IMG/VR virus record: IMGVR_UViG_3300008267_000076
Span: 1-48,620 of that record
Reading direction: 5' to 3' (one strand)
DNA from: a virus
Length of the DNA stretch: 48,620 nt
Shown: positions 1-34,900 of the stretch, one piece after another
Layout: every line of letters begins with the position of its first letter
How positions within the stretch are numbered: the stretch's first letter is position 1
Position numbers and translations under genes: made by a program
Notes under the pieces: generated by a model
Databases searched by the model: none
Seen by the model: the letters and a program-made list of their open reading frames with translations, nothing else
What the model was told of the DNA's origin: nothing

Positions 1-1592
1 GTTCCTTCGACAATGAAAGAAAGAGAGCCAAGCTGGCTCGACATTGACGTCAAGAAGAAATCTTCAATGGTACCAAAGTACTTACGGATATTCTTATCCG
101 TATCATTTCTATCTAGGCCATTTAGAGACTCAGTTTCTCCCGTGATAAGGTCTTCGACCCAAAAATTCAAATCAGTTTTAGCCTCTTGGGTTTCTTCTCC
201 TTTGAGCTTCTTGGTATACTTCTCGCACCTTCTCTCGATATGAAAGATATTGTTCTCAATAACTAGCTCAACCTTTCCACGACCCCATTGGCAATCTTGG
301 TTAATGGTATTATAGTTCTTTCTATTACCCTTCGAAGTTGTATTATAGATAGTAAAAAGTAAGCTATCGATGATAGAAGACTTACCAGAGAAGTTCTTGC
401 CAAAGATACCAACAATGCCCGTTACATCATTGAAATCAATATAGTTACCTTCACCATAATTGAAGAGATTGTCCCACTCAAGCCTCTTGAGCTTCCAATT
501 GACATTGCGCATTACGCTTTCATTCTCTTCAATCGATTTATTATACTTACTATTAAGCGAGTAAACACGATTAAGCACTTCATCTGTTACCTTATAATCA
601 TTAAGGTATTCTTTGATGAACTTCTCCTGTACAGAAGTGCTTCGCAGATCTTCCTGAATATCTTCATGAGTTACGTCAATAGAATTTCTTGTCTCGTTAG
701 CCTTATTCAAAAAAGTAACAGATGTCGGCTTATACTTCTTATAGGCAACGTCAATTACCTTCTTAAGCTCAACCATTGGAATGCTGGTATTAGATACCAA
801 CCTAAGACGAGCATTAGATGGTACTTCAGCATCTTCCGGTAGCTTTCCTTCTCTGGTTAGATGGACCGTAACAAAAGGCTTAGAATTACGTAGGATATGA
901 TGCTCTACGGAAAAATCAGTCTTGCTACGAATATCCCAGAGCAGGAACCCTTTATCATTTGTCTCAGCGTGATTCTGCTGCATTGTTGAGCCGGGATATC
1001 TAATCCTACCATCCTTATCAAGGATCTGGTTAGTCTTATGGATATCACCCAACATAGCGTAATCAAACTTATCAAAAATACCAATGTCATGATCACCATG
1101 CTCCATGACCCATCCCATATCTGTAGTTACACCAGATAGAGAACCATGATATAGAGCAATGTTAATCTTTCCTAGATCAGTTGGATCAGTCCAATTTGTT
1201 TCATCAAATACGCTCAATACATTCAACGTAATATCTTTATCAAGTGAAGTTTCTCCAGACTTCTTGAGAAGATGAAGGTTTGGAAGGTTGAGGGCATCTA
1301 TGATTGGAGTAAGAGCATCCTGCCTATTATTATTCTTTAGGTTACCATCATGATTACCAAGAATGATGTAGGTTGGAGCTATACTAGCTAAGTTACGGAA
1401 AAACTCAGAACACATCTCAACAAACTCTGGCGAGATTTGTGTCTTCGTATGAGCAATATCTCCGCAATGCACAATGTAATCTACTTTCTTTTCTGTAAGA
1501 ATTTCATACAAGTGCGAGAAAGCGTTACGGTATTCTTCATGATATTTGAGATTACGAATGTGTGTATCCGCAATATGAGCAATCCTTACCAT
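1..1592 (-). CDS. sbcDC: SbcD-SbcC (Mre11-Rad50 / gp47-gp46) fusion, 3' part outside window
   Basis: I translated this frame by hand. It is open from an ATG at 1592 (preceded by AGGAG, spacer TATAA) to the left edge, about 530 residues with no stop. Residues 1 to about 340 are a calcineurin-like phosphoesterase of the Mre11/SbcD/gp47 family: IADTH (D9, H11), HCGD, LGNHD, YHGS, GDIHK and the typical YPGSTMQQN. From about residue 365 the frame runs straight into a Rad50/SbcC N-terminus: KLKRLEW, Walker A GIFGKNFSGKSS at 395-406, and FFLTSMSSQ, the Q-loop region, near the edge. In known phages and bacteria these are two genes whose products form an ATP-dependent nuclease for double-strand ends; T4 gp46/47 serves recombination and host DNA breakdown. 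Here they are one polypeptide. An in-frame ATG at 512-510 could also start a separate SbcC, but its ribosome binding site is weak. The gene follows the primase by 13 bases. Coiled coil, zinc hook and Walker B must lie outside the window. Confidence 0.9.
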   Translation of the reverse strand, partial: MVRIAHIADTHIRNLKYHEEYRNAFSHLYEILTEKKVDYIVHCGDIAHTKTQISPEFVEMCSEFFRNLASIAPTYIILGNHDGNLKNNNRQDALTPIIDALNLPNLHLLKKSGETSLDKDITLNVLSVFDETNWTDPTDLGKINIALYHGSLSGVTTDMGWVMEHGDHDIGIFDKFDYAMLGDIHKTNQILDKDGRIRYPGSTMQQNHAETNDKGFLLWDIRSKTDFSVEHHILRNSKPFVTVHLTREGKLPEDAEVPSNARLRLVSNTSIPMVELKKVIDVAYKKYKPTSVTFLNKANETRNSIDVTHEDIQEDLRSTSVQEKFIKEYLNDYKVTDEVLNRVYSLNSKYNKSIEENESVMRNVNWKLKRLEWDNLFNYGEGNYIDFNDVTGIVGIFGKNFSGKSSIIDSLLFTIYNTTSKGNRKNYNTINQDCQWGRGKVELVIENNIFHIERRCEKYTKKLKGEETQEAKTDLNFWVEDLITGETESLNGLDRNDTDKNIRKYFGTIEDFFLTSMSSQLGSLSFIVEG

Positions 1593-1605
1593 TTATACTC
1601 CTATT

Positions 1606-2553
1606 TTAAAATGACAATTCAATCTTTCGTCTCTGCCAATAGTTGATATCAACTAGCTTGGCATTTTTCTTTCTCTCTGCAAATTCTTGCTTTGACATCT
1701 CGCCAACATCAGAGAAGGGACTGATGTCGACTTTATAGAGTTCTATATCATAGTCTAAGAATTGTTTAATAATATCTAAAGCTCTCTTCTCTGCATCTAG
1801 ATCAAGAGCTAGATAAACTGGTGTATCGTGTTCAACGACTCTATTGACCAACAAGGAGCCTTCTCTTAGAGTTGTTCCAAGGATAGGTACAGCGTTCCCA
1901 GCCACGATTGCATCAAACACACCTTCGACGATTGTAAGATCATCATCCCAATCAACATAAAGTTCATTAAAGATAATATCTCTGCTAGCCTGAGGGGCTA
2001 GATACTTTCTCCATTCACCCGTATATGACCGTCCAATAAAGTAATCCAGATCACCATTTAGATTGAACGAGGGAACAATGATACGACCAGCATAGTCTCC
2101 AGAGGAACAAAACCCTATCTTCCACTTTAAGATATCCTGTTTAGATACTCCACGCTTATGAAGAAAATTTAAAGCAGGAGAAGCCGTTACTGGAAGATTC
2201 TTTGAAGCAAGGGATACAAACTCATCTGGTAGATCAACAAGCTTCTTTTCTACCTCATCTGTTCCAAACAGTTTCTGGACCATCAAAGCATCAAATGATG
2301 AAATCTCCGTCTTTCCTGACAGACGATCCCATGATTTTAGATGTGAGAAGGTGCCGTGCGAACGCACAACTCTACGAATACTGGCTCCATGATAATCACA
2401 CACCCAACACTTGAACTTATCCTTCTCAATATTGATTGAGAGTTTGTTCTTATGGTGATTACATTTGGGGCAGCGATAAAGACGTTCAGAGCCAGACTTG
2501 AAAGATTCACCAAGAATCTCTCCTAAGATATTTACCTTTTCTTTGAACTCCAC
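1606..2553 (-). CDS. DNA primase, zinc finger plus Toprim (DnaG / T4 gp61 type)
   Basis: 315 residues. The N-terminus carries a zinc ribbon with CPKC at 28-31 and CWVC at 49-52, as in DnaG and gp61 primases. The central part (about 125-200) resembles the primase N-half of the catalytic core (RIIVPSFN, YFIGRS). A Toprim domain follows, with the conserved glutamate in TIVEGVFDA (E210) and the acidic pair in LALDLDA (D251, D253). It would make RNA primers for lagging-strand synthesis. No helicase domain is fused, so it should work with a separate helicase not seen here. The start is GTG at 2553, lying 22 bases inside the upstream RuvC-like gene. I see no clear ribosome binding site, so translation is probably coupled to that gene. 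The protein is shorter than cellular DnaG and close to phage primases. Family assignment is firm; the exact start is less so. Confidence 0.9.
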   Translation of the reverse strand: MEFKEKVNILGEILGESFKSGSERLYRCPKCNHHKNKLSINIEKDKFKCWVCDYHGASIRRVVRSHGTFSHLKSWDRLSGKTEISSFDALMVQKLFGTDEVEKKLVDLPDEFVSLASKNLPVTASPALNFLHKRGVSKQDILKWKIGFCSSGDYAGRIIVPSFNLNGDLDYFIGRSYTGEWRKYLAPQASRDIIFNELYVDWDDDLTIVEGVFDAIVAGNAVPILGTTLREGSLLVNRVVEHDTPVYLALDLDAEKRALDIIKQFLDYDIELYKVDISPFSDVGEMSKQEFAERKKNAKLVDINYWQRRKIELSF

Positions 2554-3074
2554 TTTAGACCAGCTTTTGCTACAACTAGGCTATCTGCACGATCGTATGT
2601 ACCGGGCGCAGGGTTGCCAAATTTGGTCTTATCATAAGTAAAGTTAGGCTCTTTGTCAAGGATAAATTTTAAAACATGCTCTTTGATATTTGCTCGAACG
2701 GACTTCTCTCTAGTCTTAAGACCAACAGCATTTCTAGCTTGAATAGCTGTAATAAAATGTGGAGTTAATCCAAAAACTTCCCATACAATCCATGATACGA
2801 TTCCATTGAATCTGGCTAGTGTTAAGATCGTCTGAGCTGTTGATTTACCCCTGCTTATCCACAGGGGAGACTCAATATAAATCTCTTCTATTTTAAATCT
2901 TGATTTAATATCAAGAAGATAGTTCTTCACCTTATCTGCCTTGGCGAATATATCCATATCCTTCTTTTTGCTTTGGCTATTCAATTTCCAAGCTTCGCAA
3001 TAAAGTATCTCATCGCCCATACTCAATACTGTGGCACCAGTTATTGAAGTTGATATATCCAAGCCTAATATCAT
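2532..3074 (-). CDS. RuvC-like Holliday junction endonuclease (RNase H fold)
   Basis: 180 residues with the RuvC-type catalytic layout: LGLDIS at the N-terminus (D6), a second strand IYIESP carrying E68, and a C-terminal YDRADSLVVAKAG (D161, D164). These acidic residues bind the metal ions in RuvC-family resolvases, which cut four-way junctions symmetrically. In a phage the likely job is to clear branched replication or recombination DNA before packaging, as T4 gp49 does with an unrelated fold. The length is normal for the family. It begins at ATG 3074, one base after the preceding virion gene's stop, and overlaps the primase by 22 bases, which places it in a DNA-metabolism cassette with primase and SbcDC. 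A RuvC-like fold is well supported; junction specificity is inferred. Confidence 0.83.
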   Translation of the reverse strand: MILGLDISTSITGATVLSMGDEILYCEAWKLNSQSKKKDMDIFAKADKVKNYLLDIKSRFKIEEIYIESPLWISRGKSTAQTILTLARFNGIVSWIVWEVFGLTPHFITAIQARNAVGLKTREKSVRANIKEHVLKFILDKEPNFTYDKTKFGNPAPGTYDRADSLVVAKAGLKWSSKKR

Positions 3075-12596: not shown

Positions 12597-13586
12597 TTAC
12601 TTCGAAGCCAAATATAGATTTTCTTCTATATTATTTTCTAAAGATGATGTGACACTATCAGAAATTTCATCATCAAACTTTATATCAAACCAATATTCTA
12701 CATAACTAGGATCATTATCAAAATATTCATTATTTTGTTGATTAAGTTCATTATCTATTAAAAATCCATTTATTATTTCTCTCTTTGTTGCTTTAAATGA
12801 TAAAGGAAATAATCTTTCATTTAATGAATCTTGTTGCTCTGTTCCAGAAATAATATTTCCTTGAGCATCTGTTCTTTCAACTAAAAAAACTTCAATATCA
12901 AAATTTTCATTTTGAAACTCAGAGTTTAATTCTTTTACATCAATAATGATATTATCTTCAATTACTTTAATATAGGAGCCATCTCTAAATTGAATAGCAA
13001 CCGTTTCTAGGTCTCCTTGCTCAGATAAGGTATATGGCTCTCCTGTCATTTCAGGAGGAGAAGATGTTCTATCTTCTGGTGGTAAATCCATACCTATTTC
13101 AGTTTTATAGACTACTGGTTCTAAAAATAATTGTGGAATTTTAATAGTTTGAACGTCTCCGGTAATAAACTTATTACTTGATTCAATCTTTCCTCTTAAG
13201 AGATTTATTTTCCATGCTGGGAGTTTATTTACAGCTAAAGATGAATTACCAAGAGGCGCAGAAAGGGCATATCTTTTCTCTACAGATGGCTGAGTATATC
13301 TTCCACTTCTAGGGCCAACTGAATTTAATTCTTCATTTAGTTTTCGTATCTCATCTTCTCTACTGCTGAAAACATATTGAGCTTTAATTCTAGGAGTTTC
13401 TTCTTCAATTCTATTCTGTGTCTCCATGTGATTTTCTTCAATATCCGCATAGGAAGAATCATATAGAATATCGTCATCAAAAAAAGCATACATCTTTGGA
13501 TTAAACTTACCTAAAGAAAGAAGATGTTTACCATATTGTGTTAATTGCAATTCAATTACTTGTTCTTTAGTATCTAAAAAACTCAT
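12597..13586 (-). CDS. Conserved phage structural protein, MSFLDTKEQV family
   Basis: 329 residues. The N-terminus (SFLDTKEQVIELQLTQYGK, then LLSLGKF and AFFDDDILYDSSYAD, then RIEEETPRIKAQ) matches a conserved virion protein I recall from marine and other T4-like phages, of unknown role. It shares the MxFLD, LTxxG, GxF and DDx spacing of the 5560-6492 product, which suggests a common N-terminal domain. The C-terminal half is acidic and beta-rich (IYVKVIED-like strands, then YVEYWFDIKFDD). The ATG overlaps the stop of the 3874-residue gene as ATGA, so translation is probably coupled to it. It may act as an adaptor between the giant protein and the baseplate. That is inference. Confidence 0.83.
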   Translation of the reverse strand: MSFLDTKEQVIELQLTQYGKHLLSLGKFNPKMYAFFDDDILYDSSYADIEENHMETQNRIEEETPRIKAQYVFSSREDEIRKLNEELNSVGPRSGRYTQPSVEKRYALSAPLGNSSLAVNKLPAWKINLLRGKIESSNKFITGDVQTIKIPQLFLEPVVYKTEIGMDLPPEDRTSSPPEMTGEPYTLSEQGDLETVAIQFRDGSYIKVIEDNIIIDVKELNSEFQNENFDIEVFLVERTDAQGNIISGTEQQDSLNERLFPLSFKATKREIINGFLIDNELNQQNNEYFDNDPSYVEYWFDIKFDDEISDSVTSSLENNIEENLYLASK

Positions 13587-16500
13587 TGATTACCTCCTTG
13601 ATTATTCATCTCTAAAGTCATATTTGGCTTAATCGAGATGCCTCCCTTTATCTTGCAAAGCTCAACAAGACTGCAAAAATCATATGGCCAATTATAATTA
13701 TATTTATTTTTATTAATATTAGTGCCATTAATCATATCATAATAATCATTATTAGCTTTTCTCTTGACCCTAAATACTAGCCATCTGATATTGTTGGGAA
13801 GCTGCTTACCTTCGAAGAAGTTGTTCTCGTCTAATTCATGCTCTATGAATTGATTATCCTTCGAAGCTATCTTTGCTCTCTTTGGCATCAATCCTTGCCA
13901 AATATTAGCCAAGTCTTGAGAATCAAAATTATCAGTAAACTCAAACATGTACATTACAAAAGGTTCAATGTCTTGTGTTCTCATAAAATCAAACTGTGGT
14001 GGCAGATTATACTTTCCTATTCTTTCAACAAGTTCAATGACAGAGCTACCAGCATTTCCTTGCTGAGCTGCATTTAGCAATGTTCTTGATAGCTTAAAGA
14101 AGTTTCTACCAGAATTAGAAATAGTATTTGCCAGATTAGTTCCAGATATTGGACGATCAACGAATGGTATCATTACTAAAGCTTCAGATATCTCTTTACT
14201 ATCAGCTATTTCCCCAATTCTTGATTTTTGCGATGTAAAGCCGCATACATCTATAAGAGAGCCTATCTTATCATCACATGCATTCAAATTTCTACGAGAA
14301 TAGAATTCTCTATCTCTTTGTATTTCAACTTCTCTATCGTCACTTGACAAATCTATATTCTTTTGAGAATCGATATAATAAATTCCAAGTTTTCCTGTTG
14401 GATTCATCAATGAATCAGTCTTTGACTCCAAAGTTATTTTTGGACTTATTCTAGCAATGATTCTCTCTACTTCCTGTCTCCCTCTTCTATTATTTAAGAA
14501 ATTACGCTCATGATCATATATTATTTCTACTATTACTTTAGCATTTGTTTCTAGTCTAGAATACTCTATATTATCTTGTTCTTCAGATAATCTTTCACGA
14601 GACAAGCCTCTAATTTGTTCTCCTTCCAATGAAGACACCCAAACTATTCTAGCATCCCATGGGTAGCTTCTATCTCTTGTTCTACTCATTTTTATATGAT
14701 AGACAATAGCATTTGCTAAATCCGATGAAGTTGGGACATTTGATGTAGCTGGTAAAGCCAATTCGTCAATATTTGAAGCATATCTATCTGCTTGTAAATA
14801 AGCTTCAATATCATATTCTCCTGACATACCTACTGAAATATTTTCTAGTGTTGCTCTTGGACTGGTTCCAATTGTTCTGATGCATGCGTCGGCTGAGTAA
14901 GGTATAAATTCTGATGAGTTATCGGCTGATAATATTTCAGCTATAGATGAATTCATGTACTTGTCTTGCCATGAATAGAAATTAACTCTGCCACCTACAG
15001 ACTCAATGGCATTAGAAGGTTGTCCAATCTTTATATAATCAATTCTTCCAGTTGGATCTTTAAGAGTAATAATATTTCTATTAGCCTCTCTAGTATCATG
15101 AGGGATGCCAATCAAAACTGAATAATCATTTATCTGTTCCGAAGAACAAACTGGTGATTCTTCAATGGCTAAGAATAACCCCTGTTCTGAAGTTGGGATC
15201 TCTCCATAACCTCCCCACATGCCTGTACCACACTGGTTATCTTTATTAAGATAGCTTAGATTTTGTTCAGTTTTAAAATTAAGAGCCGGGCTTTCAAATT
15301 TTGGCGATATTGACCAAACAAAATCATCATTCTCCTCAACGAAGCGATCAAAATTTATCGATGCCTGAATAGGCATTCTTGCTTGATAAGCCGGTGTATC
15401 GTGCCATTTATACGGCACTTCTCCTATGGCGGCCAAATAAAGTTGAGAAGCTGTCAAGGGCTGACCTGAAGTTCTAGAAGAGAAAAGCTGCTCCATTTCT
15501 TCATTGATATAATCAATTTCTAAATTAAGTAGTATTTCTCCAATCGTAGGCTGCCCGGTTCTTGGAGCTTTGAATTTCAATCTTGCTTTTGCACGACCAT
15601 AGAAATAAGGTGGAACATAAGCAGCCTGAGATGGATCAGAAATAGAAAGATGATTTAAATTCTGATCGGCATCTTCCGGCAAATATCTCATAGATGGACC
15701 AAAGTAACGACCATGGGTTGTCAGAGGAAGATCATTATTATCAACACCAATAATAACATCTTTACCATTATGTGGACTCATGATCATTTCGAAATCATTT
15801 GTCTTATATAGATGTATATCAAGATAGTATGTCCAACCTTCTTCTACGTGTTTCCACTGACTTTGTGGAGCTGATTTAAAATTAGTTAAACTATTATTCT
15901 TTAAGAAGAAGTTTGGTATCTCTGCTAAGAAGTTATGCATGGCCATTTCATATAATGGTTTTTGCTCACCCGTCCACTCAAAATACGGATAACGCTCATT
16001 GCTTCTTACGCTTAGAGAAGAATTTTTATAGTTCTCTTGATAATAAGATGGAGCTAATAAGAACAGCTTTGAATCCTCCCGATCATTTATCTTAGGGAGA
16101 TAAGTATCTAATGATATTAAAGATTCAAATGGCAATCTAAGTGTAGGAATAGTATTAAGAACTCCTCCTTCAGCATCAAATAATCTTTGAGCATCATTAT
16201 TCTCGATATTAATATTAGTAAGGTTAGATATTCTAAAATCAACAACTACACGATCAATATAATCGAGAATATTATTGACTATGTTAGATAATGTCTGACC
16301 TGATATACCTAATAATAAATCTTCTCTTAAAAGAGACGAAATATATGGAGAGTTAGCGAATCTATTTATTTCTTGAATTGAATCAAATTCAGTAGTATAA
16401 GTTCTTAACTCATCCCTAAAATCAGCTGCGCTTCGAAGCATTGATTGCCTAGCGTATTCCTCTAATTCTCTCGGAGTAGAGATATTACCAAGAGACACTT

Positions 16501-19500
16501 GTCTATAAATGTCATCAGTCACTACTCTATTTAAAATATTTTGAGCTATAGTTCCTTCGTATCCAGTGAAAGATTCAGTAATAGAAGAAGTTATTTTAAC
16601 ACTATTTTTGACAAATCCATATATCTGCTCTTTAGCCTCATTGCCAGTAGTTCCAGTATATGAAGCCCAATCTACTGCAATGCCAGACTTAAATGTGTTA
16701 AACAATATTCCCGGAGCAAAGAAAGGCTGTAAAGCAGCTTGTTCAGTTCTGGCTCTTGAAGTAGATTTATTTTCTTCTTCCCCTTTGATAAAAGGCATAA
16801 CGCTATCATAGAAAATAGAACCAATTTGTACAGCATGCTGAGAAGGATAAAACCCATTGTATGGAATAAGCTTCTTTACTGCATCAACTTCAAGACGGAA
16901 AACCTTTTTATTATCAACAACTTCATGATCATTAATCACTTTTGTTAAATGAGGAATTGTATCTGTATGAGCATATGACTTAAAGAATTCTTCATTCCAT
17001 ACGTACTTATCGCAAACATCTTCTCGTTTTCTTGGGATTCCAAGTTTGAACCATCCTATCAACTCTGAACAAGCTGAATTAATAGAACTTCTAATTACCG
17101 GCTCCCCACCATTTTCTGAAACAGATTCTGGTTCTTCTGAAGTTACAATATCAAATGGACCATGATTTAGGAACACCGGTGGGATGCTTAGATAAGCCGA
17201 TGGATCGGGAAGAAAATTGTTTCTCGGTAGAGAAAATCCTGTTCTCATTTGACCATTAACATAGTCATTAATATTTCCTAATATATCCTGAAGATTATTA
17301 TATTGTTCTGTCGGGATACTATCCGAGTCTATAATCGGAATTCTAATTGATTCAAAATCATAGTAAATGTTTTCAAATACTTCAATATTCTTGCATACAG
17401 TCATTGCATCTCGCCATTCAGCATAAAGTTCATTAGCATCCTGACATTGAGATGAAAAGATTCTATTTGCTAAATTATTAAACAATCTACCTGTCTTAGA
17501 ATAATAACCATTATTCTTATGATCAAAAAACCATGCATACTTATCAGGCCTATTGTGCTGATTATTAAGCGCATGAGATGAAGTGATATTACTTAATCCG
17601 GGATTACCTCTAAAAATCAATAAATCTGTAGCTTTTCCATTGAGGTACATATCTTTCGCTTTAGCAAAAGAAATATGAGATATAGTTCTTGGAAAATAAT
17701 TCTTGAAGAATAAGCTTCCATCTTTACGGAAAATATCTATAGAATCTTCTCCGAGACCCGTAATCTCCCTCATTCTTGTCGCATTTAAAGCATTTGAAGG
17801 AATCCATACACCGTCGACAAATAAAAGAACTCTATGTCTATATTCAGACGGCTTATTTGATGTGCCGCCGCCGATATAATACAAACATATGTTTTTCCAC
17901 TTGTCTTTCAGTTCGCTGGACTTAATAGCAAAAATTAGCTTATTTCCAAGAGAGTCTTCCCAAATAAGATCTCCGTCTTGGTATACTCCTTCATCTAGGT
18001 ATAGATAGGATGCTAATGTTTCTTTAGCTGTTTGCCCACTGAGCAGACGACCAGTATTTATAACATTTCTAATATTTTCAGTTATTTCTTCTATTCTTCT
18101 AGATAGTTGTTCTATTTCTAGGCTATATGAAATTCTTCTTTGCTCGAAGATATTTGCAATAGTAGAATTAAGACTAACAGTATTATTTACTTTTTCTAAA
18201 TCAGCAATCTTATTGGTTAATTGAGTTTGTAGAGTTGATATTTTGTCCTTCTCATCTTTAATTGAAATGATATCGCCTGTAAGAGATATAAAATTATCAT
18301 TCTCTACTTCTGTAAAATAATCTGCTTTTAGTTCAAAAATACCATTTTTTGAATTATTTTGCAAGTTTATCCAAGATGATAACATGAAAGAGTTATTCCA
18401 TCTTTCAAGCATAATTTCAGATGTATCTGGAGGTGATGACCAATTCCAATTGAATGCCTTGCTTAATCCAACTTTAATGCCTTGAATTTGAGTATTATCT
18501 GATAGATTTGTAATAAGTTCGTTTAGTCCGATAGACAAATTGATCTTATCTTCTGAATTCAATTGTATAACAGGATATGGCTCTCTACAATTCCAATTAT
18601 TGGATAGTTCAGAATCGATTGATACTGGCTCTTCGAGAATAAACATCTTGTCTTCAGAAACAATACTGGTTATCTGATTAGCTAAAACAGTATTATACTT
18701 GGCATTGAAAAGTTCGTTCCAATTAAGAGCATTATTAGGCTGAGCATTAATTTCAGAAATATCTAATTTAGATACTCCATCCCAAGATAAATAACTCATT
18801 TCCTTATAATCATGATGCCTCTTGCCGCTAGCATCATTCTCTTTGATAGCACCTTTTAGTTCTAAGAAATTCTTATTTTCAGTTCTAAAGTTACCAGAAT
18901 TTTGATTAATATAAAAATCTATATGAGTAGAAATATTAAACTCTGGAGTTAGAGAATAATCCTTTCCTATAGCTCTTGTGTCTTCAGAATATTCTTCATA
19001 TGAAGAATACCAAGGAGAATTATTAGAAATCTCAGCAGCTTTCCATAACCAAGATTTTTCTTTTGCTAGAATACTTCTTGGATTATATATAAATTGCATT
19101 GTCGGTCTTGGAGATAACCAAGAATTTTCCGACTCAATATCAAATTCTGCAATATTATTACTTTCGTTCGTACGGTATTCGTACGTGTAACCATTATACT
19201 GAGAATCTCCGGGCCATGAAAGCTCTCCTCTCAAATCAATATTTTCTTCGTTTCTTGGTTTATATTCTAGAGCCCAAACAGAACTTCTTCTCAAGGGCCA
19301 ACCAAAAGCGTTAAGTGAGACACTATCAGAAGGCTTATCTGGGTTCCATGAGGTTCTTTCTCTCGCATCCTCAGAGCCCCAAAACGTTCTTATTTCTGAT
19401 GCCCTAGCATCATAGCCATGATATCCTTTGTCTTCTTTATAGAATTTTCTTCTTCTTGTTCTATCTAAGCCAACGTTTCTATGTTTAGGGAATATATTTT

Positions 19501-22500
19501 CTTCATAAATTGTTTCAAATATTCTAAGCTGATACGGATCAGTAATATTACCAGAAATTAAATATTTTTCAGTTAATACATCATATATTTGACGAATATC
19601 TTTTTGTAAACCTAATCTTCTTACCAGAAGAGGATTTGCAAAATTCTCCACATTATTGCTATAAGAACTGATTATTGTCTCTGGTAACCTCCACCCACCT
19701 TCATTCATTAGAGATTCAGATGTTGGATATCCTACTCTAGAATGAATAGGTTTATTCCATGCGACAACAGGCTCTAAGTAGTGAGTAGTTGTTTGCGCTC
19801 TAGATTCTTTAATAGAGATTCTATTATTTCCGTCTTCTATATCTAAATTCTTAGGTAAGTCTAGATTAGAAATAATATTGTGTTTTCTCTGCTTTATGAC
19901 AATAGGATTTTCTGATCCTCTTATTTGTTTCCAAGAAGGAAATTGATATGGTCCATTTCTCTGATTAAGAACATCGTTAAATGGAATTTCTTCACCATTC
20001 TCTCCCATAATTGGAGGCGCTGTAAATGTCTCAGAGGACAGATCCATATTATAGTCAATATTATTGTAAGTGCTAGGGTGTCTAGCTCCTTCAATCTTGT
20101 AGAAATTATTTAAGAATGGTAAGCCATCTTCAGTAATTAACCTTTCCATTTGATCTCTTCTAACAACAGACCTTGAAAAGGCAGTTAATTCAGATGGATC
20201 TGTTTCAATTGATGGATACTTTGCAGTTATATTAGGGAATTCTGATACATATCCCCAAGGACATAGATCACGTGTAATAATATTCCCATTAATTTCTTCT
20301 ATAAAAGTTTTTTGTACTGAAGAATTAATCCAAGAATATTGAAAGTCTGAACGTGGAATCTGATGAGATACAAATGCATTATCTCTAGAAACTTTACAAG
20401 TCTCTATATCATCAATAATTTCTGGTCTATACGAATTATTTCTATGGTTCTTGTGATAGTTTGCTCGGCATGACGAGTTTAAATCGCCGGGGTTCTCGCA
20501 GTCTTCTAAAGGTATACCTCTATGGTAGCTCCTGAAGCCCCACTTCTTAGTGTGATATGTCAGCCAATTCTTTAAAAGAATTCTGACATCAAGATTTCTA
20601 TAGTTTAATCCGTTATATACAGCAAGCTCTTCAGCTTCAACATCAAGCATGCCACGAGATAACGTATCAGAGCTACCGGGAGCAGAAAATCTCTCAGTAA
20701 AAATATGCTCGTTTCTAGCACGAACTGGTAATTTAAAGTCATACAAACCAAGTACCGTCTCGGAATTAGAAGTTGGTGCCTCTTGTATATTTTCTCCCTC
20801 TTTCTCTATTAGCCATCTATTATTAATTCTTCTACCAGAAGTTTGTACAACCTGATAGTCGAATCTATAATTACCAAATCCATGTTTAATATTTCTTATA
20901 TTTATGGGTCTTTTTGCTTTTTCGTCTCGGTAGTACTGAGCTTTAGGCTGTTCTGGGAGAAGGGGAGTATAGGTGCCATTGCTGAAATTCCAAGCCTCTG
21001 GTCTATTATCTTCATTATCTTCTCCATCATTCAATGGTACATGTCGACTTTGTAAACCACCAACATGAGTTTTGGTGAAAATACCTTGTAAAGGAATTTC
21101 CTTATCATCACCATATGTATCGGAGTGATTGCTATTCCAATATTTCTCATTGGTATCAAATACCTTATTTAACTCAAAGAGAGAGAGTATACTACCATTC
21201 ATACCATCTCCCTCTAGAGCCAGATTTAGCCTAGAGTGCAGGAAAGGATTCTCAACATCTCGTCGATCAACGCAAACTGAATTAGCTTTATCTTCTGCTT
21301 CTATAAAAGAAACAGTATTATTATCAGCGATCTCAGCTCTTACGAAATCTATTTTCTTGCTTCTTCTATTGTTTATTCCAGAGTGTAAATTATTTTGTGG
21401 CTCAATATTAAATTTATATGGTGTAGTTAAACTCCTAATAACAAAAGTCTGACCATCATAAGTTCTTCTTTCCCCTGAGATTTCATAAGAAAGATTTCTC
21501 TTGATATGGCTTCCAAAGCTTTTAGTATTTATTGAATCTAGTATTTTATTCTTTGATTGATCAACATCGTCATTGCCAGATGTTAGTTCCTCGCCATCTC
21601 TTTCTGCTCTAGACTTCCACCATAAGCAATTTTCATTTTCCTGCTCTGTCGCATGACCATGCTTCCAATTGTAAGTTAGTTCATTGATACCAAGCAAAGC
21701 AGCTTCTGGTGGTTTCTGCTTAAATTCTAAAGTAGGAAACTTATTCCAGTATTTATTTCTCTCAAGAATATGAGACTCAATAACAGTTCTGATGTCATCA
21801 GAGAAATTAGCTGATGCTGGTATCAATTGTTTAATGATATCTCCTATGGAAGAATCTATCCATTTATAAAAATTAATATATCTTTCTATCTTGGGAGATT
21901 CTATAAATCTTTGAAAGAACAATTGTCTTAACTTATTAAGATTCTTATACTCCATCCTATAACGATTTACAGGCTCACCTAGCAAATTATTAAATTCAGT
22001 TATAGAAGCAAACGCTTCTATAATCTCTTGTGAAATATTTTGATACATGCTCTTTTCTAGAGCCCAGAAATAGTTTACAGGACGACTTAATTTAGTAAAA
22101 TACTCATCGTCTTCTGAAGCAATATTTATTGTTTCAGAAGGGCCAATAATCTCAGGAAGATTTTGTTTATAAGAAATAAGATAGTTTCTATCAACAACAT
22201 TTAGATCATCTGGGTAGTAAAAATCACCTTTTCCAGTATATTGTTTTTTAAGAATTTCACTTAGCCAACCATATCTACTATTTTCCGTTGATTCAACTAA
22301 AGAGCCTCCAGATACGTCATCAATATAGAAATAAGAATCAGAAAGAATATTACCTGCTTCATCTATTCCATTACTAGGACTTGATTTAGTTACAGTTGCA
22401 AAATCCCAATATAAACAAAGAGTATCCATCTCTGGAACTCTTATATCTGCTGATATTTGATAAAAATAGGCATTCTTATAAGGATTTTTCACACCCCAGT

Positions 22501-25207
22501 TATCAGGATCTTGAGCATGATATTTAATAATATCATTACTCAAATATGATTGCCAATATCTAACTTCTCCTACTTTTACGTCTGAAAAAGTAATAGGACT
22601 AATACTATTGTCATTAAAATTACGATACTCAGAACCAAGAAATATTCTCTTATTAGCATTTAATGCTAATTTGGCAATTGACGGCTCTAACTCATATTCT
22701 AAATGAAACTCTTTTTGAGTAAGTTCAAGAACCGTATTAATTCCATAAAATTCCAAAAAATATTTAGCACTGTTTTCAGATAAATAAGCTAAATTCGGAT
22801 TATTATCAACTCTAATTCTTACAGCAAAATTCCATCTTGTATCATCATATACATCTGAAAAGTAATCAGTCTCTAATACTCCATTAGTATATTGGAATTC
22901 TGTATTAGGTTCAAATCCCATTCCACGAATATCTAATCTAAACTTTGCATTATTGCTATATTCTTCTTCTTTAATAGCTACAACTCTAAAACCTAGATGA
23001 GCATTTTCATACCATGTATAATCATCTTCTTGTTCTTTTGCCTGATGCATACCAAATAGACAACTTGGCTTAGCATCTGTAAACCCAAAGTATATATCAT
23101 CATACTTTGGATGCTCAATGGGTATTTTCTTAGGAAAAATTATTGATGCTTCAAAAGTAAATGGAATAAAATCAAGGTTTTTTTCCTGATCAGATGAACC
23201 GAGAATATAAGATACGCTATGTTCATTATCAGGCTGTTTTGCTTGATAAACTGTCGAATCATATCTATCAGCATCATTAAAGTCTAAAAAGTTCTTTCTA
23301 ATAGATGTAGAACGATTATTATCTTCAAATTTATATTTGATCTCATTTCCATATAAATTTATTTTGATGATGTCGTCGCCTATGCCAAAACATCTAAATA
23401 AATTTCGAAATGATTTTTCTGTTCCCTTTGACTTATAGATAGCAATAATATTATTATATATGTTTTGATATATTAAGTTTTTAACATTATATAACTTCTC
23501 TTCATAGAATGTATCTTCATCTCTATTAAGAAGCCTTTCCAATATCGATGCATCAATAAAAATATCTGGAGTCGATAATCCAAGTGATTCAAGCATTTTT
23601 GAAACAAATGGTAATGGCTTATCTCCATTATTATTTGAGTAGTATATATTGCCTAAAGTTGGTAGAGCTTCAATTTGTAAATGCAAAGTATCAAAATAGC
23701 TTGATATCATTTGAGTGAGGTTTGATAAACTGCCGTTTGTCTCATCAGCTTCTGCTATCCAACTTGGTATAGAATTTAGTATTGAAGCATTGTTTATCTG
23801 GTCGTAGGATAAACCTTCTTCCCTCTTGCTCTGTATAAGAGAAATTACTTCTTTATTTTCTCTATACATAATGGGATCTTTAAATTCTACATTTTTTACT
23901 TTCTTCTCGTTAATTGCAGAACCTGTATCTCTTACAGAAAGATCATAATTGATGATGATTCCATTTGAAATTCTTCCTGAATAATCAAGCACCTGCTTAT
24001 CTAAAGCTGAAATATTTTGGTTATCAGTTATACCTTCATTGAATTTAAAATATACCCCTAATTCAACATTAGAGTTATCAGTATTAGTACCACCATATAC
24101 TTGTGTTAGCCAATTTCTACCAATTTCTTCTGAATTTCTAATCGATTTCCAGAATCTAAACTCATCAAAAGAGGCCTTTGGACTTCCATAACCATAGAGA
24201 TTTGATTGAGTATTATTTGATGTTCTGTGTTGTAATGAGCCGATAGTAGCAGTCAAATGATATGATTCAATATCATCTGTAAATGATTTATTTATCTTTG
24301 TACCATCAAAGAGTTCTTCGATTAATTTACCATTTATATATAATCTAAAGCATAAAGAGTTTTGAGAATTCACTACAGAAAAAGCATAGTGGTTCCACTC
24401 TCCTATGGAATAAGAAGAAGGTAAATTATTTCTATCTCCAATATTACAAAATTCTTTTCCATAACCTGAAGTTACATAACTTACTCTGAATATGGAATTT
24501 ATTGAATTTTTATCCTCTGGTATCTCTACTAGAAATCTAGAATAGTCAGGTGAACCGTATTGTTGATTATTCCATAAATCAAAAAGACATAAATTACCAT
24601 CTATAGCCTGTCTGTCTTCATCTAATTTAAACCAGAACTCAACAGTATTTCCTATATTTGCATTAGCATAGAGGTTTACTTCACGATTCTGACTTGGATT
24701 CCAAATATTAGAATTACCAAATCCTTCGGGATACTCTCTCCTTAGTTCACCAGTTGGATTATTAGGTGTTGAGTTTGGTCCTCCTTTTACAAAGACAAAC
24801 TGAGGCGAATTTAAAATTCGATATCCATCATTATAATTAAAGATATTATTATTTTGATTTAATTTTATAAATCCAGTAGTGCGAGGATAAAGATTATCAA
24901 ATATATATTCATCAATATATGTTGAATTATTATGCCAAGAAGTCTTTTCAGCCAGCGAACCATCATATGGGTAAGTATCAATAATTCTATTAATTGAATC
25001 TAAATAATATTTCTCAGCTGAACCATATCTTGCAAACGTACTTGGATTATTAAAATTTATTATATTTCTTGGTATAAAAGTATTTTTCTCTTGATTTCTT
25101 TGCTCAAGATATTCTATGGATTCTCCATTTCTTTCAACTGTTTCTTGAAATTTTTCTACACTTAAAATCTGGTATGACTTTTTACCAAATAAGTCTTTGA
25201 TGCTCAT
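13583..25207 (-). CDS. Giant 3874-residue LamG-type tail or fibre protein
   Basis: One unbroken frame of 11.6 kb, about a quarter of the window. The N-terminal 120 residues carry FARYGSAEKYYLDSI, YPYDGSLAEK and YIFDNLYPRTTG, which look like an attachment domain. A LamG/concanavalin-like jellyroll lies at about 186-380: TVEFWFKLDE, then WNHYAFSVVN, LYINGKLIEE and FDEFRFWKSIRN. A second, weaker LamG-like unit is at about 680-930 (FTFEASIIFPKK, WNFAVRIRV, VGEVRYWQSYLS). A third near 2270-2520 (FMLSSWINLQN, LFVDGVW, DLLIFRG) is interrupted by a coiled coil (about 2310-2390). The rest is unrecognised and rich in Asn, Tyr and Arg. LamG folds usually bind glycans or proteins, so host-surface recognition or a large baseplate skirt is likely. 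Ribosome binding site GGAG precedes ATG 25207. No signal peptide or protease motif is seen. Confidence 0.88.
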   Translation of the reverse strand: MSIKDLFGKKSYQILSVEKFQETVERNGESIEYLEQRNQEKNTFIPRNIINFNNPSTFARYGSAEKYYLDSINRIIDTYPYDGSLAEKTSWHNNSTYIDEYIFDNLYPRTTGFIKLNQNNNIFNYNDGYRILNSPQFVFVKGGPNSTPNNPTGELRREYPEGFGNSNIWNPSQNREVNLYANANIGNTVEFWFKLDEDRQAIDGNLCLFDLWNNQQYGSPDYSRFLVEIPEDKNSINSIFRVSYVTSGYGKEFCNIGDRNNLPSSYSIGEWNHYAFSVVNSQNSLCFRLYINGKLIEELFDGTKINKSFTDDIESYHLTATIGSLQHRTSNNTQSNLYGYGSPKASFDEFRFWKSIRNSEEIGRNWLTQVYGGTNTDNSNVELGVYFKFNEGITDNQNISALDKQVLDYSGRISNGIIINYDLSVRDTGSAINEKKVKNVEFKDPIMYRENKEVISLIQSKREEGLSYDQINNASILNSIPSWIAEADETNGSLSNLTQMISSYFDTLHLQIEALPTLGNIYYSNNNGDKPLPFVSKMLESLGLSTPDIFIDASILERLLNRDEDTFYEEKLYNVKNLIYQNIYNNIIAIYKSKGTEKSFRNLFRCFGIGDDIIKINLYGNEIKYKFEDNNRSTSIRKNFLDFNDADRYDSTVYQAKQPDNEHSVSYILGSSDQEKNLDFIPFTFEASIIFPKKIPIEHPKYDDIYFGFTDAKPSCLFGMHQAKEQEDDYTWYENAHLGFRVVAIKEEEYSNNAKFRLDIRGMGFEPNTEFQYTNGVLETDYFSDVYDDTRWNFAVRIRVDNNPNLAYLSENSAKYFLEFYGINTVLELTQKEFHLEYELEPSIAKLALNANKRIFLGSEYRNFNDNSISPITFSDVKVGEVRYWQSYLSNDIIKYHAQDPDNWGVKNPYKNAYFYQISADIRVPEMDTLCLYWDFATVTKSSPSNGIDEAGNILSDSYFYIDDVSGGSLVESTENSRYGWLSEILKKQYTGKGDFYYPDDLNVVDRNYLISYKQNLPEIIGPSETINIASEDDEYFTKLSRPVNYFWALEKSMYQNISQEIIEAFASITEFNNLLGEPVNRYRMEYKNLNKLRQLFFQRFIESPKIERYINFYKWIDSSIGDIIKQLIPASANFSDDIRTVIESHILERNKYWNKFPTLEFKQKPPEAALLGINELTYNWKHGHATEQENENCLWWKSRAERDGEELTSGNDDVDQSKNKILDSINTKSFGSHIKRNLSYEISGERRTYDGQTFVIRSLTTPYKFNIEPQNNLHSGINNRRSKKIDFVRAEIADNNTVSFIEAEDKANSVCVDRRDVENPFLHSRLNLALEGDGMNGSILSLFELNKVFDTNEKYWNSNHSDTYGDDKEIPLQGIFTKTHVGGLQSRHVPLNDGEDNEDNRPEAWNFSNGTYTPLLPEQPKAQYYRDEKAKRPINIRNIKHGFGNYRFDYQVVQTSGRRINNRWLIEKEGENIQEAPTSNSETVLGLYDFKLPVRARNEHIFTERFSAPGSSDTLSRGMLDVEAEELAVYNGLNYRNLDVRILLKNWLTYHTKKWGFRSYHRGIPLEDCENPGDLNSSCRANYHKNHRNNSYRPEIIDDIETCKVSRDNAFVSHQIPRSDFQYSWINSSVQKTFIEEINGNIITRDLCPWGYVSEFPNITAKYPSIETDPSELTAFSRSVVRRDQMERLITEDGLPFLNNFYKIEGARHPSTYNNIDYNMDLSSETFTAPPIMGENGEEIPFNDVLNQRNGPYQFPSWKQIRGSENPIVIKQRKHNIISNLDLPKNLDIEDGNNRISIKESRAQTTTHYLEPVVAWNKPIHSRVGYPTSESLMNEGGWRLPETIISSYSNNVENFANPLLVRRLGLQKDIRQIYDVLTEKYLISGNITDPYQLRIFETIYEENIFPKHRNVGLDRTRRRKFYKEDKGYHGYDARASEIRTFWGSEDARERTSWNPDKPSDSVSLNAFGWPLRRSSVWALEYKPRNEENIDLRGELSWPGDSQYNGYTYEYRTNESNNIAEFDIESENSWLSPRPTMQFIYNPRSILAKEKSWLWKAAEISNNSPWYSSYEEYSEDTRAIGKDYSLTPEFNISTHIDFYINQNSGNFRTENKNFLELKGAIKENDASGKRHHDYKEMSYLSWDGVSKLDISEINAQPNNALNWNELFNAKYNTVLANQITSIVSEDKMFILEEPVSIDSELSNNWNCREPYPVIQLNSEDKINLSIGLNELITNLSDNTQIQGIKVGLSKAFNWNWSSPPDTSEIMLERWNNSFMLSSWINLQNNSKNGIFELKADYFTEVENDNFISLTGDIISIKDEKDKISTLQTQLTNKIADLEKVNNTVSLNSTIANIFEQRRISYSLEIEQLSRRIEEITENIRNVINTGRLLSGQTAKETLASYLYLDEGVYQDGDLIWEDSLGNKLIFAIKSSELKDKWKNICLYYIGGGTSNKPSEYRHRVLLFVDGVWIPSNALNATRMREITGLGEDSIDIFRKDGSLFFKNYFPRTISHISFAKAKDMYLNGKATDLLIFRGNPGLSNITSSHALNNQHNRPDKYAWFFDHKNNGYYSKTGRLFNNLANRIFSSQCQDANELYAEWRDAMTVCKNIEVFENIYYDFESIRIPIIDSDSIPTEQYNNLQDILGNINDYVNGQMRTGFSLPRNNFLPDPSAYLSIPPVFLNHGPFDIVTSEEPESVSENGGEPVIRSSINSACSELIGWFKLGIPRKREDVCDKYVWNEEFFKSYAHTDTIPHLTKVINDHEVVDNKKVFRLEVDAVKKLIPYNGFYPSQHAVQIGSIFYDSVMPFIKGEEENKSTSRARTEQAALQPFFAPGILFNTFKSGIAVDWASYTGTTGNEAKEQIYGFVKNSVKITSSITESFTGYEGTIAQNILNRVVTDDIYRQVSLGNISTPRELEEYARQSMLRSAADFRDELRTYTTEFDSIQEINRFANSPYISSLLREDLLLGISGQTLSNIVNNILDYIDRVVVDFRISNLTNINIENNDAQRLFDAEGGVLNTIPTLRLPFESLISLDTYLPKINDREDSKLFLLAPSYYQENYKNSSLSVRSNERYPYFEWTGEQKPLYEMAMHNFLAEIPNFFLKNNSLTNFKSAPQSQWKHVEEGWTYYLDIHLYKTNDFEMIMSPHNGKDVIIGVDNNDLPLTTHGRYFGPSMRYLPEDADQNLNHLSISDPSQAAYVPPYFYGRAKARLKFKAPRTGQPTIGEILLNLEIDYINEEMEQLFSSRTSGQPLTASQLYLAAIGEVPYKWHDTPAYQARMPIQASINFDRFVEENDDFVWSISPKFESPALNFKTEQNLSYLNKDNQCGTGMWGGYGEIPTSEQGLFLAIEESPVCSSEQINDYSVLIGIPHDTREANRNIITLKDPTGRIDYIKIGQPSNAIESVGGRVNFYSWQDKYMNSSIAEILSADNSSEFIPYSADACIRTIGTSPRATLENISVGMSGEYDIEAYLQADRYASNIDELALPATSNVPTSSDLANAIVYHIKMSRTRDRSYPWDARIVWVSSLEGEQIRGLSRERLSEEQDNIEYSRLETNAKVIVEIIYDHERNFLNNRRGRQEVERIIARISPKITLESKTDSLMNPTGKLGIYYIDSQKNIDLSSDDREVEIQRDREFYSRRNLNACDDKIGSLIDVCGFTSQKSRIGEIADSKEISEALVMIPFVDRPISGTNLANTISNSGRNFFKLSRTLLNAAQQGNAGSSVIELVERIGKYNLPPQFDFMRTQDIEPFVMYMFEFTDNFDSQDLANIWQGLMPKRAKIASKDNQFIEHELDENNFFEGKQLPNNIRWLVFRVKRKANNDYYDMINGTNINKNKYNYNWPYDFCSLVELCKIKGGISIKPNMTLEMNNQGGNQ

Positions 25208-28900: not shown

Positions 28901-31900
28901 TTATTTGTTGCTAGAAGATAATATCTTTTCTTCTAGTTCATCTATTTGCATTTCAATATCATTCGAATATGATTCACAAATATCTTCTATTGTTTTACTT
29001 TGGTCTTGTTCATTTACAGAGCCTTCAGTTTCTTCTGATGAATTATCATCACATATAATTTGGTCTATAACGTTTAAGGCTAAATAAGTAAAACCAAGCG
29101 TAGTTAATGGCGGTCCAATTCCAATACCAGTTGGTGGGGTTCCAAATATTGTTGGAGGAAGTAATCCAAGTACAATGGATGCCATTGGTACAACCTGACC
29201 ATGTGATTCTGCTAAATCATATATTTGTTTGGCTACCTTAATAGCTGGATCTGAATGTTCTACAAATTTATCAAAAATAATTTTTGGTGTTTTTACTGCC
29301 ATCTGTCTTATGGCAGATAAGTCTAGGCCCATATCAATGCCATCTATCTTTAAACCTATCTTTCTCTTTAAACAGCCAATACCAAATTTAAAATATTCAT
29401 CAATTGACTTTGATAATTCTCTATTAGATGGCTGTTGAGAAATTTTAAAGCTAGAAGTCTTCATTAGACTCATAAAGCTACGGTATAGCTGTTCTTTGCT
29501 ACCAGCAAATATATATTTTGTACCAGAATGATTTGCTACCGACATCATCGTATAAACAGTCATAATACCTAAAAATCTTTCTATAGGAATAGAAAATTTA
29601 AAAATAGTCTGGTATGCGTCGCTCTCGACCATCTTCTCACGAAGAGGTATGAAAATTTCATTATAATAATTTTCCCAATCCTCCTCTCCTAAGTCCAATA
29701 GAGAACGATTTTTAATATCATTTTCAAAATAGCTTCCATAACTCTCTATCAAAGGTACAGGGAAGAAATATCTTGTTTCAATAACATTCTCAATATTGTT
29801 AAATAAATTTACTTGCTTCTCTTCAGTATAAAAGGTTCTATATTTTTTACTCATATTTTTTAATGAGTTTAAAACAACCTCAGAAGGCTTTGGCGGTTGA
29901 TATTCCTTATTATCAATACCCATAATATTCTTGTCATATGGAAGATAACTTAATCTAAGGCCCGGCTCTATCAAAGAAAAATAATTCCCAACTTTCCACT
30001 TATCTTGAGAATAATCAAAGATATCTGTATATTCTTCGCTATATTGTCTAAAAATAGATACTCCATCTATACTTGAATTCAATATATTTCTAACAAATGA
30101 ATCATGAAAACTCTTCATTTTATTATTCATTTCTTCTATATTAAGATAGACTTCATATTCTTCTGCTGAAGAAATATTTTCTTCCCAAGCTAACTTTAAA
30201 GAGTCATTGATTATTTTTTTCAAAGTTTGTTCTTCAACTGAAAGGTTGAAAATGTCCTGTCTATCAAGTAGCATTGAAGAGAGTGAATCTACAGCTGATG
30301 AAAAATCATATTTTCGTATTAAACGATAAAACTTCTCTAAAAAGAGATTTCCATTTTTAATATTAAAGTTATTTTCTTGCCTTATTGCATTTTGTATTTC
30401 AGATACAAATCGATTATTGTTTTCCTTCTGTAATTCTACAGTAGGCAACCAATCTTTAATCATTTTATCATGCATATTAAAAGAAGAATTAAAATTAATA
30501 TTTTTTAATGGCGAACTTTCATCTTGTAGAAAGATTTGCTTCATTTCGAATGCAATAACAGCAAATTCACGAATAATCATATTCTTTAAGTTCTTTTTAA
30601 AGAATTTTTGGTACTCTTCTTCTAGATTTGCATTTTCATCCATTTCTGATAAGATTTGATCATTATTCAAATTTCTATTATTAACAACTTTCACTATATC
30701 TTCATAATATGAAGATTGATATTTTTTTAATTCATCTATTATATTGGTAGAAATAAATTCAATGACATAATCATCAATACCATTTTGAAATGAAAACTCA
30801 GAGAATACGAATATGCCTCTTAAAAAATAATCTAATACATAAATTTTTATGGTCAAATCGATAACAATATCAATAAGTGATTTATTGACTGGGTTGTCAT
30901 AACCATTCTTTTCTTCATTTAAATCTTCATCTTCTAGACCATCAATAAGTGAGCAAAAGCCTCCATTTTTTTCGAAATTAATCTGAGCCTTTTTTACCAT
31001 CTTATCAAGAGATAAAATATCAGGATTAATATTACAAATTTTTTCAAATGAATTCTGCTTACGATTAAAGTTTATTTTTTCTAATAATGTACTATTGGTT
31101 TTTATACCACTCTTTTGTGGATCTTTATTATTCTTAGCCGATTCAGAATCGAAGAACAATAATGAATTAGATATTTGCTTTGCTAACAAAGACATCAAAT
31201 CATTTGCTATATTGGGTTGTACAGCTCTTGAATAATATTCATATATCTCATCCAAGTACTTTTTATGCTCATCTAATAAGCGACCATTATTGTCTCTAGT
31301 AAAATGTTCTCTCAAAATATTCTTTACATATAATCCAAATACAGAATATTGTAATGGTATTTTATTTGTATTTTGTTCTGTTCCTAATAAGCTATCAGCA
31401 CAACTAGAAGATTCATATAAAGGCCTTAAAATATTCCATACCTCTGGTATGGCCATATAGGATATAATATATTCACACCTCTCTTTGCCACTTAAGTTCA
31501 TAGCTTCTCTTAAAGCTTGTTGAGGACTTATTAAAGGATCAAATTCTCTATCGAAATGAAATTCATGAACAAGGAGATTCGCATTAGGCGGGCATAATGC
31601 ACTATAGCTAGCATATACTCTAACTATAGTTGTATTATTATGATTTTCTGTTATAACTCTCGTAGTACCAGAAAAATTAGGATTCAGCGCTTCCTGTAAT
31701 GAAATCGAAGAGGAATTATTTGGATCATTTACTTCAGTATTAATAGCTATGCCTAAGTTACTGAAATTATTTAATGATATTAATCTTGATATATATCTTT
31801 TTATAGATAAAGGAAGTTTTTTTTCTATCCTTGATATTAAATAAGGCTCAGTTTGTGCAGGATTATCGCCATTTGTCTGCATAATTTGTGAATATATTTC

Positions 31901-34900
31901 TATTTGAAATATTTCATTCTCGATATCATCAATGCTGCCTTTATCCCATAGATTTTTATATCTTATCTTCCAAATAGGATAGCTTTTAATAAGTTCTTCA
32001 TAATTTAATTCAATTTTATCTTCCTCGACTTCAACTAAACTCTTTAATCCATCAGCCATTTTTTTGATCGATTCATGGTCTGGAACCAGCGTTAATTCGT
32101 AATAGACTCCACTATCATCCATTCTTGTATTAAAAGAATCAGTATATTCTAGATTAGAGAGATTCTTTTTTGCATATGGACATACAACTTTCATTGTTGT
32201 TTCTTTTGTAACTTTTTTATTTCTTGCAAGTGGCTCTTTTCCAAAACCAGTATCAAAAGGCAAATCATATCCTTGTGCTTCCATTCTCTTAATTTCTGGG
32301 TTCCATGTCAATTTTCCATTTCTATATATAACTGCATCTATTATTTCATTCTTTCTTATATTGGATATCATAAAATCATGATATGAATTGATATCAGAGT
32401 CAAAAGACATAGATATCGTTTCCAAGTTAGATCTAACTACCATCTCCAACATATGATCAAATGTGTCATCTTTAAGAGATATTGAGCTTCCTTTCTGCTT
32501 AGAACAAAATAAATCTTCAACAATATTATTATTTTGTAAAGCATTAGTTGAAAAAGTATCCAATACAGAATTGATATACCTCATCTTCTTTTGTTTTCTG
32601 ATTCTACTTTTTTCTAAAATTTCATCTAATTGCTCTTTAGTTATGCTAGTATCTTTTGAATATACTATATTCATATCAATATCTAAATTAGATGGTTCTG
32701 ATAATCGTTCATTATTAGTAATATTGATTGTATCAATTAATTTACTATCTACAATATCTCCAATTGAAGACATAAAGTCTTTAATTTTAGTCTTTGAATT
32801 AAAGACTTTTGAATATTTCGGATATCTTTTATCTATTAAAATTCTAACTTTAGTTAGAAGCGGATCGCTGGCATCTCCCTTTAATAGACTAGCTAATTCA
32901 GCTGAATTTAACATAAGAGAAATATCATTAAATAATGAATTAAATTCCTTGATATTTCCATCTTTAATGCCAGAAATCTTAGAAATTTCAGAAATATAAT
33001 TATCAAGATTTTTATATGATTGATCAACTGAAGAAAATTTCTTTTCGTTTGATTTCTTTAACATCGATATTATATTATCATCATGGCTATTAGCAGAAAC
33101 GTTTATTTTTATTTGCAATAATGAATTTATAAATTCTTTAATTAAGGTAACAAATATATCATTGAAATAATCAATCATAGTATTATAAATAATTTTCGAA
33201 AATCCTTTATTTTCATCAATAGTAGGATACTCATCAGATATCTTAACTGTACCAACTTTTGGTAAAGTATTTCTTTTGAATAAAGATTCAATCGATTCAA
33301 TGTCATATGTTGATAGCTTATTATTAAGTAAGATTTGTTTTTTATATTGAGGATATAGAGAAATTATTTTCCACGCCACCTTAGGCGCACTGGTTGGAGC
33401 TTTAAAAGCTGTAATATCAATTTCAGTATTCAAAACAATTTTGTATAACTGTTCTATTTTTATTTTTCCAAAACCATCAACATTTATTTCAATTTTAAAT
33501 ATTTCATCTTTATTATACTTTACTGTATTAGTTCTCTCCGAAGGAGAGCCGCCGGCAGAGCCGGTGGGACCAGCCAAAGATGTATCAAAATCATAAGAGA
33601 AGAAATCATATATTGAATTCTTACTACCTTTTTCATATTCTTCTGAAAGAGACAACAAGATATTTTTAATCTTTGATTTTCCAATAGTTGGAATAACTAT
33701 CTCTCTTTCTATAAGATTTTTGAATTGTTCTTCTTCAATAAAAGGCCGAAGCTGGCCGAGCGGTAGTTCAGGGTCGCCCACAAACATCACGGCATCTTTT
33801 GGGACGTCTTCTTCTATGCTTTCCTCTTCTTCTGATTCTTTTAAATCTTTGATCAAATCAAGACCAGTAAGTGAATGTACGATATCTTTTAATTCTATCT
33901 TACCTAAGATCTTTTCAAATGCTTGATCTACGCCAGTAATTTCTTCTATAATATTAGTTAAATTAGCTATTATTTGATCTTCTACGTTATCAACTGCATT
34001 AATAGCATAATTTGCTACTTCTTGTCGTATTTCGTTATTTAAGAATATTTTTTCTTCTTTGGCTAGTTCTGAAGATGATTTCAATGATTTTTTTATAGCT
34101 CTTATCTTATGTCTACCGTCAATAGACATACTTCTTGCTATATTTAATTCATTGATAGCAGAGTCAACTTTAGATAAAATATTACCCTTTTTCTTCTTCA
34201 AGGAAGAAGGACTAATATTAATCAAAGGAAAATCTGTATATTTTTGCAGGAATTCAGACCATGTTATTTTTTGATTATAATCATTTTCAATTTCATTTAA
34301 ATGAAATAAATACTTTATTGTCCTTTGTGAATCATTTGGTTCAGAGTCTATAAAAGAATCAAAACCAATTTTTATTGGTTCATAAGTATTATTTATTTCA
34401 TATGAAATTGATTGTGGTTTATAATCTAAATCTACAACATATTCTAAAGAATTAATTGAATTTAAATTCAAATTATTTTTTCCCAATAGAATATTCAACG
34501 TTGCAATAAATTTATTTAATCTTTTTGCTTCTTTAGTGAGATCAATATTTAGATTAATCTCTGAATTAGAAATTTGTCTATCCCATACATGAAAGTATTT
34601 AACAACGTTTCCTATTTTATTAAGAAACGAAGAATCACCAGATGTATATAATATTATTTTTTTTATACCATCAGGAATTGCATTCTTTGCTTTTTGCATC
34701 TTCTTGAGATATTTCTCTTCTATAGAGATCAAAGCTTTCATATTTTCCAAATATTTATCGGAAACATGATAGTCTTCTACTGCAATAACTCCAATAGCAG
34801 ATATGACCATATCAAGATATTGGTCAGAGGAATCGATTCCTAAATCTGAAAGAATTATTCTGGCTGCTTCTTTTCGTGAGTTTTTAAGTCTAGGAATTAA

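Follow-up and report, generated by a model that had tools for sequence, protein, structure and literature searches.

A fused Mre11-Rad50 (SbcD-SbcC) gene of the R555 type and its predicted role in DNA-end processing in tailed phages

Fusions of the nuclease Mre11 and the ATPase Rad50 (also named SbcD and SbcC, respectively) were described in 2011 by Yoshida, Claverie and Ogata, who identified them in Mimivirus R555 and in twelve other cases that include a Bacillus phage, bacteria, plasmids and eukaryotes (PMC3175470). Homologues of R555 were abundant in aquatic viral metagenomes, where they were found on scaffolds with phage primases, and phages were suspected to encode them. The active site of R555 departs at two positions, i.e., Asp is replaced by His in the GDxxD motif and His206 is replaced by Asp, and the authors reasoned, on the basis of the Thermotoga complex, that 9-12 residues of linker would be enough to join the two proteins (PMC3175470). 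In T4-like phages the same two enzymes, gp47 and gp46 in T4, are encoded by adjacent genes in the same order, as are their cyanophage homologues, and a similar role, recombination-dependent replication, is expected. These proteins differ from the lineage described here in that they are encoded by two separate genes (as an earlier, sequence-only reading of this DNA correctly stated for T4), have a GHxH active site and a shorter coil, and carry a CX2C hook. In the literature, the Rad50 hook has been called conserved in all forms of life.

The window, i.e., the whole stretch of DNA that was analysed, comprises 48,620 nucleotides of a marine phage. Positions 3-1592 of its minus strand form one open frame of 530 codons, which starts with the ATG at 1592, has an AGGAG ribosome-binding site 5 nt upstream of this start (sense strand AATAGGAGTATAAATG) and runs off the end of the contig. 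The contig stops short of the 3' half of the gene, which encodes the coiled coil, the hook and Walker B, and the window protein thus consists of the N-terminal 530 residues. Domain limits were drawn in part from an AlphaFold2 model of the nearest relative, L001, in which 386 of the 530 residues are identical to those of the window protein. The features of the region are as follows.

3..1592 (-), fused Mre11-Rad50 (SbcD-SbcC) gene, first 530 of ~1050 codons (Pfam and relatives)
894..1592 (-), Mre11-type phosphoesterase (nuclease) domain, residues 1-233 (Pfam PF00149, motif conservation; limits from the L001 model)
705..887 (-), putative Mre11 capping domain, residues ~236-296 (by position, with secondary structure of the L001 model)
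525..638 (-), putative Rad50-binding helix-loop-helix of Mre11, residues ~319-356 (L001 model, helices 319-333 and 337-356)
501..524 (-), linker, residues 357-364, holding a non-conserved internal ATG at 510-512 (junction alignment and L001 model)
3..500 (-), Rad50 ATPase N-lobe, residues 365-530, with Walker A GKNFSGKS at nt 378-401 (Pfam PF13476, alignment and L001 model)
1606..2553 (-), primase gene immediately upstream of the fusion (phrog_47 DNA primase, E 3.5e-31)
2532..3074 (-), RuvC-like Holliday junction resolvase gene (phrog_159, E 2.7e-6)

The claim of the sequence-only reading that an Mre11-type nuclease and a Rad50 Walker A share one frame without a stop was borne out, and both the motifs and the Walker A residues that it gave were right. 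The window protein carries ADTH, GDIAH, GNHD, YHG and GDIH, as well as the Walker A GIFGKNFSGKSS at residues 395-406. On this single chain Pfam identifies Metallophos (PF00149) at residues 3-129 (3.3e-12) and AAA_23 (PF13476) at residues 371-507 (2.3e-6), and both SbcD-like and SbcC-like families of PHROGs are matched.

A scan of viral contigs yielded 401 stretches encoding relatives of the window protein, of which the best 80 loci were examined for complete open reading frames. Such frames were found in 77 of these loci, and all 77 are full fusions of 1044-1053 residues with no internal stop, each ending in Walker B/D-loop and ISH motifs; Walker B, which had been proposed as a check, is thus present in the same frame, together with the D-loop, in all complete relatives. 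Added scans raised the total to 126 distinct full-length fusions. While Walker A is read in the window itself, the SGAE signature and the LDEP Walker B are read in the relatives, as the window ends earlier.

The fusion is widespread in aquatic phages and belongs with the R555-type fusions; it is of a kind already known, and the novelty implied by the sequence-only reading is not supported, as descriptions of such fusions date back to 2011 (PMC3175470). Common to R555 and the window lineage are the domain order on one chain, the two active-site substitutions and the aquatic abundance near phage primases; both substitutions occur in the window protein (GDIAH and GDIH), its relatives, Microcystis phage Mel-JY01 and the uncultured phage LR756508.1. 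The proteins differ in length (1351 residues in R555, ~1050 here), the tailed phage here also has a RecA-type recombinase, and most relatives carry a CX6-7C hook, a feature that is undiscussed in the R555 paper. To enzymes that were seen in 2011 as fragments from aquatic samples only, the fused gene adds a long genomic context.

The nearest annotated isolate is Mel-JY01 (PP395634.1), in which an "AAA domain containing protein" is a 1066-residue fusion with ~35% identity over 99% of the window protein; it adjoins a primase-like gene, as here, but has a CX2C hook and other surrounding genes, and is annotated by its ATPase half alone. ORF305 of Xanthomonas phage XacN1, a fusion of 1099 residues, has the same order as the window protein, but it displays the T4-like motifs GHFH and SAGQK and groups with unfused T4-type pairs; given this placement, which involves long branches, it is probably an independent fusion. 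When the first 20 kb of the window were compared with phage records using megablast, no match was found, i.e., there is no near relative among the isolate phage records searched. A search of bacterial and archaeal assemblies returned eight loci under unrelated organism names; these are probably misbinned phage contigs, and no host is therefore proposed. Plasmid matches were rejected as fusions, being metallophosphoesterases or annotated exonucleases that cover less than half of the query, none of them fused.

The L001 model has a mean pLDDT of 82 and a pTM of 0.49; with the latter value the domain folds are usable, while the overall arrangement is unproven. It displays a phosphoesterase core (residues 1-233), a cap (236-296), a low-confidence stretch (299-312) and a helix-loop-helix (319-356), followed by an 8-residue linker and the first Rad50 strand at residue 365. 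The outgoing arm of the coil spans residues 545-718 and the returning arm residues 730-902, with a loop between them at 719-729. The helix-loop-helix fits the Rad50-binding domain of Mre11, an assignment that follows the discussion of the Thermotoga complex in PMC3175470, and the linker length is close to the 9-12 residues argued for in the same paper. Solved Mre11 and Rad50 chains are among the sequence and fold matches. The sequence-only reading had suggested a search for fused homologues in other large phages, and proteins of the same architecture were indeed found in giant viruses and several phages: the best viral neighbours in Foldseek are long DNA-repair proteins of Tupanvirus, Harvfovirus, Catovirus and others, and proteins of Tenacibaculum and Listeria phages. 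The sequence, the 126 relatives and the model with its short linker all support the proposed covalent SbcD-SbcC fusion, in which the nuclease is tethered and the ratio fixed at 1:1; the tether may also, as had been proposed, change how the complex opens DNA ends. Such a single chain, with its stoichiometry fixed, could ease biochemical and structural work on a complex that usually consists of separate subunits.

Further off in the window are genes for a PD-(D/E)XK exonuclease, a PhoH-type protein and a baseplate protein. Each of 14 related records, 124-204 kb in length, has no full-length match to SbcC or SbcD other than the fusion; a separate phosphoesterase frame of ~220 residues is found in two of the records and a weak, partial SbcC match in two. 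All 14 records encode a RecA-family protein. Such a gene complement would be expected of T4-like recombination-dependent replication, from which the role is inferred. The fused protein is very probably a single-chain Mre11-Rad50 end-processing nuclease of tailed phages, of the R555-type kind, in which the equivalent of gp47-gp46 would be one polypeptide composed of nuclease, cap, helix-loop-helix, short linker and an ATPase with coil and hook. Beyond the single frame, the conserved junction and the motifs of both enzymes, which are taken directly from the sequence, we infer that two copies would pair via Mre11, the ATPase heads and the hook to form the usual M2R2 complex, and that the linker would take the place of free assembly, yielding a pre-tethered gp47/gp46 complex. 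The fusion would resect or open phage DNA ends to leave 3' single strands for the phage RecA-type recombinase, which together would feed recombination-dependent replication.

The Mre11 metal-ligand motifs DxH, GD, GNHD, H149 and GDxH are kept in the window protein and its relatives, while the substitutions of GHxH by GDxH and of GDxxD by GDxxH are present throughout the lineage. With GDxH in place of GHxH, the metal site is possibly unlike the one in standard Mre11. These lineage-wide substitutions could also be taken to indicate that the fusion has lost or altered the usual nuclease and serves another role, e.g., DNA tethering or inhibition of the host SbcCD; however, conservation extends to the other metal ligands and to the Walker, signature and D-loop motifs, the fusion is the sole full-length SbcCD match in genomes where RecA, primase and RuvC genes accompany it, and a Vibrio phage D12 homologue likewise has GDLH, which leaves this alternative improbable.

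It could also be imagined that the long frame is translated and that, in addition, an internal start at the ATG at 512 produces free Rad50, such that fused and separate forms coexist. This in-frame ATG directly precedes the Rad50 part and a purine-rich GAAGAGAA is found some way upstream, but, in contrast to the main ATG with its AGGAG, it lacks a ribosome-binding site at the usual distance. Furthermore, the corresponding residue (M361 in the window) is Met in just 2 of the 77 relatives, while the adjacent junction RN[IV]NW (residues 362-366) is nearly invariant among them; the internal start was rejected on these grounds, and the probability that it is used is very small. That two genes were joined by a sequencing or assembly error masking a stop or frameshift near 510-560, a concern because the window is a single metagenomic contig, has a negligible probability and is refuted by the same join in all 77 complete relatives from many independent contigs, by the conserved junction residues and by nucleotide differences between the window and L001 that fall mostly in third codon positions, at the junction as well as to either side of it. 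The fusion is genuine, the original observation is confirmed, and chance and frame error are excluded.

The window ends before its own hook, which was therefore surveyed in the 126 distinct full-length relatives. The zinc hook (CxxC) that had been anticipated is found in 27 of these, typically as HEYDPxCxYC; the other 99 display a wider cysteine pair instead, in most cases PCGxxFPxCKFIKDA (CX6C) or CX7C. The search pattern overlooked four of the 99, which were identified by eye, and two of these four have a third cysteine. At least two cysteines lie within the 26-column hook in all 126 relatives, while cysteine makes up ~1% of the rest of the coil; their retention in the hook argues for a retained, predicted metal site. 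No description of the wider CX6-7C hook was found in the papers searched, a set that covers a minority of subscription journals, and the replacement of the Rad50 CXXC hook by CX6-7C seems to be unreported. An unfused SbcC of Moorella phage MTATph1 (L107:3474-5606) carries PCNDKLKPSC, i.e., CX7C and no CXXC, so that the wider hook is not confined to fused proteins.

On a tree of the head domains, the hook type switches at least eight times (relatives L001-L199; hook at ~residues 713-739 of L001). The heads of L004 group with those of L005 and L006, and the head data reject a grouping of L004 with L007 (p-AU 0.0004), whereas its coil and hook group with those of L007, and the coil data reject joining L004 to L005 and L006 (p-AU 3e-9); the group was picked after the identities had been seen, which renders these p-values somewhat optimistic. 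Identity between L004 and L005 is 86-97% over the head bins and mostly 30-45% around the hook. The AU tests support the exchange of at least one coil-hook cassette (that of L004), while other changes, e.g., in L131, look like replacement of the tip within the same coil. One may speculate that there are two discrete hook types, the wider one also metal-binding, with tips or cassettes swapped under kept heads, and that types that do not pair constitute a compatibility code. The two types, their repeated interchange and one exchange are found in the data, metal binding and incompatibility are speculation, and the reading as a whole is doubtful; if the types indeed cannot pair, the hook would keep each phage's DNA-tethering complexes apart during co-infection.

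In two cases the fused gene is interrupted just after GDIHK. In the 484-kb phage LR756508.1 (L084:5573-6613) an insertion of ~1 kb holds a 305-residue frame with cysteine-pair motifs and a TnsA-like nuclease match, and is possibly a homing element; a comparison of this insertion with Rfam for an intron gave nothing significant. At L106:3880-4003 the gene is broken at the same place by a short insertion and a frame change, possibly the relic of an element of the same kind.

Elsewhere in the window, two very long frames of 3874 and 2143 residues (13583-25207 and 28901-35332) lack any Pfam match; they occupy a region that also holds a baseplate wedge match, and they probably encode virion proteins. 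Frames with passenger-associated (PATR) repeats (43926-46268) and with kelch and Listeria-Bacteroides repeats (47546-48607) are perhaps those of adhesion or tail-fibre proteins. At 42409-43803 a PhoH-like ATPase carries an N-terminal PIN nuclease domain, which is a PhoH2-like arrangement.
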